Below are positions 29,073 to 29,690 of a stretch of DNA of 64,000 bases, piece after piece; the stretch's first letter is position 1, and every line of letters starts with the position of its first letter. Below the pieces are notes generated by a model. The model searched no databases. It had not been told where the DNA came from and saw nothing but the letters and a program-made list of their open reading frames with translations. The DNA is taken from contig CANFUT010000012.1 in assembly GCA_947450325.1 (NCBI GenBank), positions 1 to 64,000 on the forward strand. The letters run 5' to 3'. The stretch comes from Flavobacteriia bacterium (GTDB taxonomy: Bacteria; Bacteroidota; Bacteroidia; Flavobacteriales_D; Crocinitomicaceae). Position numbers and translations under genes: made by a program.

Positions 29073-29108
29073 TTTCCCCCTTTGGAGGGGGACTAAGGGG
29101 GAGGAAAA
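29073..29108 (+). repeat. G/C-tract repeat, copy A
   Basis: The core CCCCCTTTGGAGGGGG can fold as a hairpin (CCCCCT/AGGGGG, loop TTGG) and is followed by ACTAAGGGGGAGG. It ends immediately beside the stop codon of the DUF559 gene (29109). Copy C at 29655-29690 is nearly identical and copy B at 29541-29573 is an inverted, diverged copy. Confidence 0.85.
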
Positions 29109-29474
29109 TCATTCTCCCTTTAAACAATAAACCACATGCTGAATCTGATTTCCAACAGCATCAATGTTTTGAATGACATCGCCTTCTGTGAAACGAATCA
29201 TTGTAAATCCCAAAGATTCAAGTTTTTGTTGCCGATAAGCATCATAACTCGCTTTTGAAAAATGAGAACTTCCATCAATTTCAACGATTAAACCAATTTC
29301 CTGCGCAAAGAAATCTACAATAAAATGGTCGACAGGTATTTGTCTTTTAAATTTTACCCCTTGATTGTTTTTTGATAAAAGTGATTTCCAAATATATTTT
29401 TCAGCCCTCGAAACGGATTCGTTTCGAAGTTCATGGGCAAATCCACGGAGGTCTTTTGAGTAAAAGTTGTTCAT
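29109..29474 (-). CDS. DUF559 endonuclease-like protein
   Basis: The 121-residue protein matches the DUF559 family, a compact PD-(D/E)XK-type nuclease fold related to very-short-patch-repair (Vsr) endonucleases. Visible features are SRAEKYIWKSLLSKNNQGVK, the QIPVDHFIVDFF strand, GLIVEIDGSSHF with the catalytic-type Glu-Ile-Asp, YDAYRQQKLESLG and the terminal strand MIRFTEGDVIQN. Its DNA substrate is unknown. It is a single small gene flanked by inverted copies of a G/C-tract repeat (29073-29108 and 29541-29573), suggesting a compact element rather than an ordinary gene. Confidence 0.88.
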   Translation of the reverse strand: MNNFYSKDLRGFAHELRNESVSRAEKYIWKSLLSKNNQGVKFKRQIPVDHFIVDFFAQEIGLIVEIDGSSHFSKASYDAYRQQKLESLGFTMIRFTEGDVIQNIDAVGNQIQHVVYCLKGE

Positions 29475-29540
29475 TGTAAAAGGTTTTTATTACTTAAATA
29501 TAGGGAAAAATAATTAGAGTGAAACCAAGTTTAAAAAAAG

Positions 29541-29573
29541 GTCCTCCCCCTCGATCCCCCTCCAAAGTGGGAA
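29541..29573 (-). repeat. G/C-tract repeat, inverted copy B
   Basis: Read on the minus strand this is CCCACTTTGGAGGGGG followed by ATCGAGGGGGAGG, a diverged copy of the repeat at 29073 in opposite orientation. It lies 67 bases upstream of the DUF559 start codon, so copies A and B act as terminal inverted repeats of a unit of about 500 bases. Confidence 0.8.
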
Positions 29574-29654
29574 GAATGCCAAATCATCAATAATCTAAAA
29601 AACGAAAATGTTCTAGCAAAGTTTTAAAACTCTATATGTTGGCGAAAATTTGAG

Positions 29655-29690
29655 TTTCCCCCTTTGGAGGGGGATAAAGGGGGAGGAAAA
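29655..29690 (+). repeat. G/C-tract repeat, copy C
   Basis: Nearly identical to copy A at 29073-29108: the same CCCCCTTTGGAGGGGG core followed by ATAAAGGGGGAGG, in the same orientation. Together with copy B it forms an inverted pair about 80 bases apart. Confidence 0.85.

Follow-up and report, generated by a model that had tools for sequence, protein, structure and literature searches.

The DUF559 locus described here is probably one copy of a widespread mobile element that consists of a Vsr-fold nuclease gene bounded by inverted repeats of a C-G-G triplex type. Several sequence comparisons carry this interpretation. Even in distant bacteria the gene is accompanied by the repeats, which frequently form inverted pairs, and units of this kind are found in frame within unrelated proteins, with repeats near both ends of the insert. 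In one family the repeat variants track the nuclease clades, and the nuclease itself is conserved. From a nuclease that travels with its repeat we infer one that may also cut at it and spread it.

The window, that is, the whole 64-kb stretch of DNA that was analysed, belongs to contig C12, in a genome (G000) of 3.44 Mb. The repeat core CCCCCTTTGGAGGGGG, when up to two mismatches were allowed, matched three times in the window (29076-29091 on the plus strand, 29556-29571 on the minus strand and 29658-29673 on the plus strand), against 0.02 matches expected from shuffled sequences; the core of copy 2 carries one mismatch, located in the C tract. This core search, together with Pfam, confirmed the arrangement that had been read from the sequence, a 121-residue DUF559 gene between inverted repeat copies with a third copy beyond (Table 1). 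The stop codon of the gene is only a few bases away from copy 1, and the third tracts of copies 1 and 2 point toward the gene from either side. The proposed unit of three copies had to be revised: copy 1, the gene and copy 2 make up the gene-bearing unit, and copy 3 belongs with copy 2 to a gene-free back-to-back pair, of which there are others elsewhere in the genome (C16, C7).

Table 1. Features of the DUF559 locus (positions refer to the window).
Feature	Position	Strand	Remarks
Repeat copy 1	29074..29104	+	Type-A-like, ACTAA second loop; adjoins the 3' end of the DUF559 gene
DUF559 (PF04480) nuclease gene, 121 aa	29109..29474	-	Pfam; E25, D54, E65, D67 invariant
Repeat copy 2	29543..29573	-	Type-B-like, ATCGA second loop; lies in inverted orientation on the upstream side of the DUF559 gene
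Spacer, copies 2-3	29574..29655	.	Ends like those of the inverted-pair spacer at G000:C16:32050-32192
Repeat copy 3	29656..29686	+	ATAAA second loop; gene-free back-to-back pair with copy 2

The unit in the window has terminal inverted repeats, a feature of IS elements and MITEs, and at another locus (L033) these form an exact pair of more than 30 nt. An insertion sequence with its own DDE transposase was rejected as an explanation because DUF559 is the sole gene in the unit. The window's genome contains one DUF559 gene and 10 copies of the strict 29-base repeat pattern. A tandem arrangement was found in G056, where repeat, gene, inverted repeat, repeat, a second partial DUF559 match, inverted repeat and repeat follow one another. 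DUF559 matches a few hundred bases apart were also noted at L256/L279 (G127:C114), at L289 (G125:C1:2788352-2789239) and at G056:C3:30401-31157. Some repeats are interrupted by a short palindrome-like sequence containing GGAGAAAAAGCGATAGCTTTTGAAGACTCAGCGATAGC (G000:C8:93560, C10:65864 and C19:22546, corresponding to L014-L016, and L188), which suggests a second repeat family nested in the triplex repeat.

Each repeat copy consists of three tracts, C5-G5-G5, the predicted layout of a class II intrastrand triplex; copy 1 reads TCCCCCT-TTGG-AGGGGGA-CTA-AGGGGGA. The repeat had been described as hairpin-forming. The repeat itself is real, but it is more than a hairpin, and DNA folding gave modest hairpin energies for the three copies (z -0.97, -2.16 and -1.45). 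The hairpin-only reading was dropped in view of these weak z-scores and of the three-tract layout as the common feature. Under the search rule for PIT/TM motifs, which specifies the intrastrand triplex layout with a stem of 6-15 nt and loops of 1-6 nt, copies 1 and 3 match with 0 mismatches, and copy 2 falls outside the rule through a single mismatch in its 7-nt stem. With their C5/G5 tracts, the window copies differ from the TMECO consensus (CCCTCNCCCN3-6GGGNGAGGGN3GGGNGAGGG), of which a search of 14 other genomes or records with DUF559 found strict copies in 9.

We found no description of a link between DUF559 and such repeats in open-licence PMC articles. Small dispersed repeats were reportedly treated by Elhai and colleagues in 2008. 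According to the available text of Holder et al. 2015 (PMC4666352), PIT/TM motifs are abundant in some Enterobacteria and Cyanobacteria, the TMECO form has 3,610 copies across 262 proteobacterial genomes and G/C-rich triplex motifs are numerous in some cyanobacteria. The same text describes two kinds of second loop, TTA and CCG, whose copies form inverted pairs, and states that no mobility gene or activity was found near E. coli triplex sites (PMC4666352). The repeats of the window's family share the Y-R-R layout and have two similar second-loop types, TTAA-like and CCGA-like, which likewise pair inverted. They differ in that the window variant departs from the TMECO consensus and in that the motifs bracket DUF559 genes, E. 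coli ycjD included.

We examined the association of gene and repeat in 60 genomes of the window's bacterial family, G000 included. Both DUF559 and the strict 29-base repeat were present in 18 genomes, the gene only in 7, the repeat only in 10 and neither in 25 (p 0.0015); for DUF559 genes of the window clade, the corresponding counts were 16, 1, 12 and 31 (p 4e-6), genome counts that in both cases ignore shared ancestry. DUF559 was thus absent from 10 of the 28 repeat-bearing genomes, and the strict repeat from 7 of the 25 with DUF559. The sequence-only reading had named two outcomes that would speak against an element, random placement of the repeat relative to DUF559 genes and orthologues that lack it, and on neither count was the element refuted. 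An alpha-type copy lay within 400 bp of 12 of the 19 window-clade genes, where 0.03 genes with a strict copy were expected. The seven others, inspected by eye, comprised six with shorter sibling repeat variants and one (L035) with half a copy. At the same distance, the alpha-type repeat accompanied 12 of 19 window-clade genes and 3 of 117 other DUF559 genes. Sister DUF559 clades in the same family have sibling repeat variants of their own, and two genomes, G037 and G014, each carry two DUF559 clades beside different repeat classes (the second class of G014 being assigned by eye). Within the family, repeat variants follow DUF559 clades.

The association extends to distant bacteria. Starting from four proteobacterial DUF559 proteins, a scan gave at least 441 loci, of which the best 80, nearly all outside Bacteroidota, were taken; 74 were tested after 6 had been dropped for flanks shorter than 300 bp, and 124 mechanically called ORFs from the same loci served as controls. 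A triplex motif lay within 300 bp of DUF559 in 59 of 74 loci, compared with 8 of 124 control ORFs (p 3e-27), and on both sides in 34 of 74 compared with 0 of 124 (p 7e-18). A motif-free test gave a similar picture, with an exact inverted repeat of at least 12 nt between the flanks in 36 of 74 loci and 5 of 124 controls. Fifteen of the 74 loci had no motif under the definition used. One of the loci without a triplex motif, L101 of Legionella anisa, has an exact 30-nt inverted repeat of other sequence between its flanks, which was the longest length tested.

In E. coli KE47 (4.94 Mb), which has 11 strict TMECO copies, the stop codon of ycjD lies inside a repeat copy, so that the last residues are encoded by the repeat, and a second strict TMECO copy is located about 180 bp past the 3' end of the gene. 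E. coli ycjD falls within a match of at least 80% in 3,333 of 5,426 genomes. In four ycjD-less strains that were read, efflux genes adjoin sapF instead, and a comparison of presence and absence of ycjD is therefore confounded.

At class level, DUF559 was found in 122 of 247 genomes. The 136 loci studied at this level (30 and 80 from the class scan and 26 from the family scan) form a score-ranked partial listing, and the 63 of them with DUF559 in frames of more than 300 aa therefore do not represent a natural frequency. Triplex motifs flanked 39 of these in-frame loci on both sides and 14 on one side, leaving 10 with neither; for the other 73 loci the numbers were 28, 27 and 18, all of them counts without control ORFs, and 28 of the 136 loci were without motif under the definition used. 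Where both sides had a motif, the two nearest motifs were inverted in 22 of 26 distant loci, in 21 of 26 in the order '+,-' with third tracts facing the gene. They were inverted in 35 of 40 in-frame class-level loci, in 34 of 40 as '-,+', which is the opposite sense to the distant loci, and in 19 of 30 free-standing class-level loci, near half. Inversion is thus the rule in two of the three sets, its sense differs between these two, and the loci do not share a single architecture.

Reading frames of 920-1,276 aa contain three of the strong family matches. In these frames Pfam placed DUF559 between the pair of B12-binding domains in MetH (L020), within LeuS (L021) and immediately ahead of the SpoIIE domain of a TPR protein (L022). 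Compared with the solved MetH structure 9ssp, homology of L020 ends at query residue 417, which is the start of the repeat-encoded peptide, and resumes at residue 558. Pfam detected no intein in these three hosts. Hosts were assigned for 47 of the 63 in-frame loci (LeuS 26, MetH 8, RecJ 3, RecG 3, SpoIIE 3, AcsA 2, MutS 2), with 16 left unnamed and L285 running into an unsequenced stretch. Beyond L020-L022, LeuS, MetH and SpoIIE hosts were recognized by BLAST against these three and by motifs, and the Bacteroidota hosts RecJ, RecG, MutS, AcsA, IleS, HisF, RluD and HsdR were named by motif reading rather than by Pfam. Outside Bacteroidota, Pfam was run on 10 of 17 frames of more than 260 aa and located DUF559 within MmeI, PriA and PrmC. 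It also placed the domain next to class II tRNA synthetase and HsdS domains and at the N terminus of frames that contain a Mur ligase, MeaB or a peptidyl-arginine deiminase; in L172 and L159 Pfam gave no host domain. A PGYxTAD-like stretch precedes the domain in many of the Bacteroidota in-frame units.

The ends of the inserts were mapped in LeuS, using 26 loci and, for comparison, 27 LeuS proteins without DUF559, a few of which have a bare repeat. A boundary was obtained for 25 of the 26, L265 giving none. On the left, the start of the nearest triplex motif is no more than 15 nt from the end of the insert in 21 of 25 cases; on the right, the end of the nearest motif is equally close in 18 of 25. 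These counts come without a shuffled control. The 25 placed inserts occupy two host points. Each of the 26 genomes, mostly drafts, with G199 a single contig, had one LeuS match, namely the DUF559-bearing frame, which is 880-1,292 aa long in 25 genomes and 451 aa in G259.

We also aligned the LeuS editing-domain loop of 30 family genomes, 16 of which have the shortest form. The bare triplex repeat is present in frame in this loop in the window's genome G000 as well as in G050 and G013; it occurs in the opposite orientation in G010 and with extra sequence in G030, and the loop of G020 holds DUF559. This series supports the view that repeat and gene may be forms of one element. By eye, other in-frame short palindrome-like sequences were seen in the loop of G009, G038 and G045 (L221, L232 and L238); the loop may be a general insertion-tolerant spot.

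In a tree of 134 DUF559 domains (L310 and L349 left out), based on few columns and with many open forks, a single supported clade of 55 (100/98) unites 52 of 61 in-frame domains and 3 free ones. Hosts are mixed on supported branches within the tree, namely LeuS with AcsA-like (100/88), RecG-like with IleS-like (100/90) and MetH with SpoIIE (100/83). The 19 members of the window clade form a supported group; every one is free-standing, and they belong to one family.

The window protein matches PF04480 over residues 9-114 with an E-value of 2.8e-29 and 101.6 bits (gathering score 20.6 bits). For its AlphaFold2 model (pLDDT 88.4), the nearest solved fold is the putative endonuclease NGO0050 (3hrl, E 6.5e-7), followed by the catalytic domain of the homing endonuclease I-Bth0305I (3r3p, E 3.6e-5, TMq 0.62); Vsr itself is a weaker structural match (1vsr, E 1.4e-2). 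E25, D54, E65 and D67 were invariant in both alignments made, and the catalytic pattern is present in 135 of 136 DUF559 domains. dN/dS was 0.03-0.17 in 10 of 12 pairs, the other 2 being saturated. The domain is under purifying selection, which is also compatible with an enzyme useful to the host.

We searched for empty counterparts of these insertions. Neither a target duplication nor a base-exact pair of empty and filled sites was found at the window site, the repeat places of G000, the LeuS loop or the E. coli sites. For the window unit, the genus comparison yielded no base-exact empty site: G035 and G060 are without gene and repeats at this position, but are too diverged for a base-exact comparison, G015 is filled, and G050 has its copy divided between two contigs, apparently because of an IS at the repeat. 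For eight repeat places of G000, comparison with G015 and/or G050 showed sites that were either shared or messy (C8 and C9 being partly compared). At three E. coli TM sites in seven strains we saw remnant or REP-like sequence and no clean insertion. At yraQ-dolP and gabP-gabT (L360/L371 and L363/L369/L370), KE47 has the triplex motif and the other strains compared have REP-like sequence in its stead.

According to our working model, the DUF559 nuclease would recognize a folded form, hairpin or triplex, of its own repeat and would nick or cut at the repeat, or at a target holding such a repeat. Host repair would then copy the unit, or the repeat alone, into a new place by a homing-like copy and paste. 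Single repeats and pairs elsewhere would represent gene-free derivatives, as REPs and REPINs do for RAYTs. Stop-free in the right frame, the repeats would allow units to survive within essential genes, and for this reason the units would be hard to lose. That the nuclease acts on the repeat had been suggested before, and we likewise infer it. More tentatively, and as a possibility that we would not yet call probable, the units may form an ancient cross-phylum selfish class, in which a Vsr-fold nuclease that recognizes a triplex or hairpin end spreads bare PIT/TM repeats as well as stop-free units that install an active nuclease, unspliced, in essential proteins to avoid loss.

Three other explanations have to be weighed. 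The one closest to our model, with which it overlaps, restricts the nuclease to homing: it would cut repeat-holding sites or the gene-free allele and be copied by recombination between repeats, which themselves spread by other means. The fold similarity to I-Bth0305I, the LeuS loop that is occupied by a solo repeat in several genomes but by DUF559 in G020, and the two host points shared by the placed LeuS inserts agree with it; the many different host proteins and sites do not, and repeat variants that change with the nuclease clade suggest that the repeat belongs to the element. We consider homing alone unlikely. It is less likely again that repeats and gene are passive neighbours, the repeats having been moved otherwise, or being terminators or protein-binding sites, and gathering near DUF559 in accessory, tolerant places. 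Solo repeats are indeed common far from DUF559, a third or so of the repeat-bearing family genomes lack the gene, and other short repeats, seen by eye, share the LeuS loop. However, control ORFs from the distant loci rarely had a motif on either side and never on both, the repeat variant tracks the DUF559 clade within one family, and repeats lie near the ends of LeuS inserts, where a terminator or an intergenic site cannot apply. Because repeats are found near the ends of inserts within coding sequence and vary with the nuclease clade, a repeat-bounded element fits better than chance proximity or terminators.

Least probable, by a small step, is a Vsr-like repair enzyme that acts on mismatches linked to cytosine methylation, as proposed for Caulobacter VsrA, or on damage at structured C/G tracts, and is retained beside them for this reason. 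The available text on Caulobacter VsrA, a DUF559 protein, links it functionally to a cytosine methyltransferase and describes it as responsible for the SOS response in cells without the methyltransferase ScmA, mismatch repair being the authors' proposal (PMC12907096). VsrA contains the DUF559 domain, and the PD-(D/E)XK superfamily is common to E. coli Vsr, VsrA and the window protein; the weak fold likeness to Vsr and the strong purifying selection would also suit a repair function. Such a function does not need inverted flanking repeats, in-frame insertion in unrelated proteins or switching between hosts, and flanking repeats are absent from the description of VsrA in the available text of PMC12907096.

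The mobile element favoured here resembles several known systems without belonging to them. For RAYT-REP, gene-free single repeats, inverted pairs and co-evolution of enzyme and repeat are described in the available text of PMC3116915, PMC3733652 and PMC6006769. Like a RAYT/REPtron, the present unit has one enzyme gene flanked by short structured repeats, which are found singly and in inverted pairs as well. It differs in having a Vsr-type nuclease in place of an HUH Y1 tyrosine transposase, in its C-G-G triad, with the GTAG tag absent beside the three window copies, and in the presence of the DUF559 gene in frame in housekeeping proteins. The RAYT likeness proposed by the sequence-only reading thus extends to the anatomy and not to the enzyme, whose fold is of the Vsr/homing-endonuclease type, and RAYT membership was rejected on account of the wrong enzyme and the missing GTAG; the proposal of a self-spreading element, by contrast, gained strength from the in-frame units, near whose boundaries repeats are located. 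With I-Bth0305I the element shares its second closest fold and the logic of a selfish nuclease. DUF559 units differ from it in having inverted repeats as their boundaries and in keeping to the frame of the host protein, with no intein domain in the three in-frame hosts scanned by Pfam. The element would therefore work like RAYT-REP and homing endonucleases, but lacks a defining feature of each. Rickettsia palindromic elements are palindromic repeats located in frame in protein genes. To our knowledge, they carry no enzyme gene, whereas the present system places solo repeats and also a nuclease bounded by repeats in frame.

Many bacterial genomes contain triplex-type repeats for which no mobility enzyme is known, and DUF559 is a directly testable candidate, in laboratory E. 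coli (ycjD) among others. If this is true, a partnership of enzyme and repeat like that of RAYT-REP would exist on an unrelated fold. Nuclease domains that remain unspliced in LeuS and other housekeeping proteins would also bear on insertion tolerance and on misannotation.

DUF559 genes are carried by plasmids as well. From 34 plasmid records we fetched 15, and 14 with flanks were examined by eye or with a short script. By eye, two Synechocystis plasmid genes had no flanking inverted pair, one of them having a single upstream C/G-tract stretch. Inverted C/G-tract repeats accompany the genes on plasmids of Deinococcus (hpa operon) and Pseudanabaena, and those of Picosynechococcus plasmids are flanked on both sides by C/G-tract repeats, again by eye. 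Defence-type neighbours of DUF559 (DUF499, DUF1156 and BREX PglX) were noted at L079 and L086 on Picosynechococcus plasmids and at L082 in Synechocystis.
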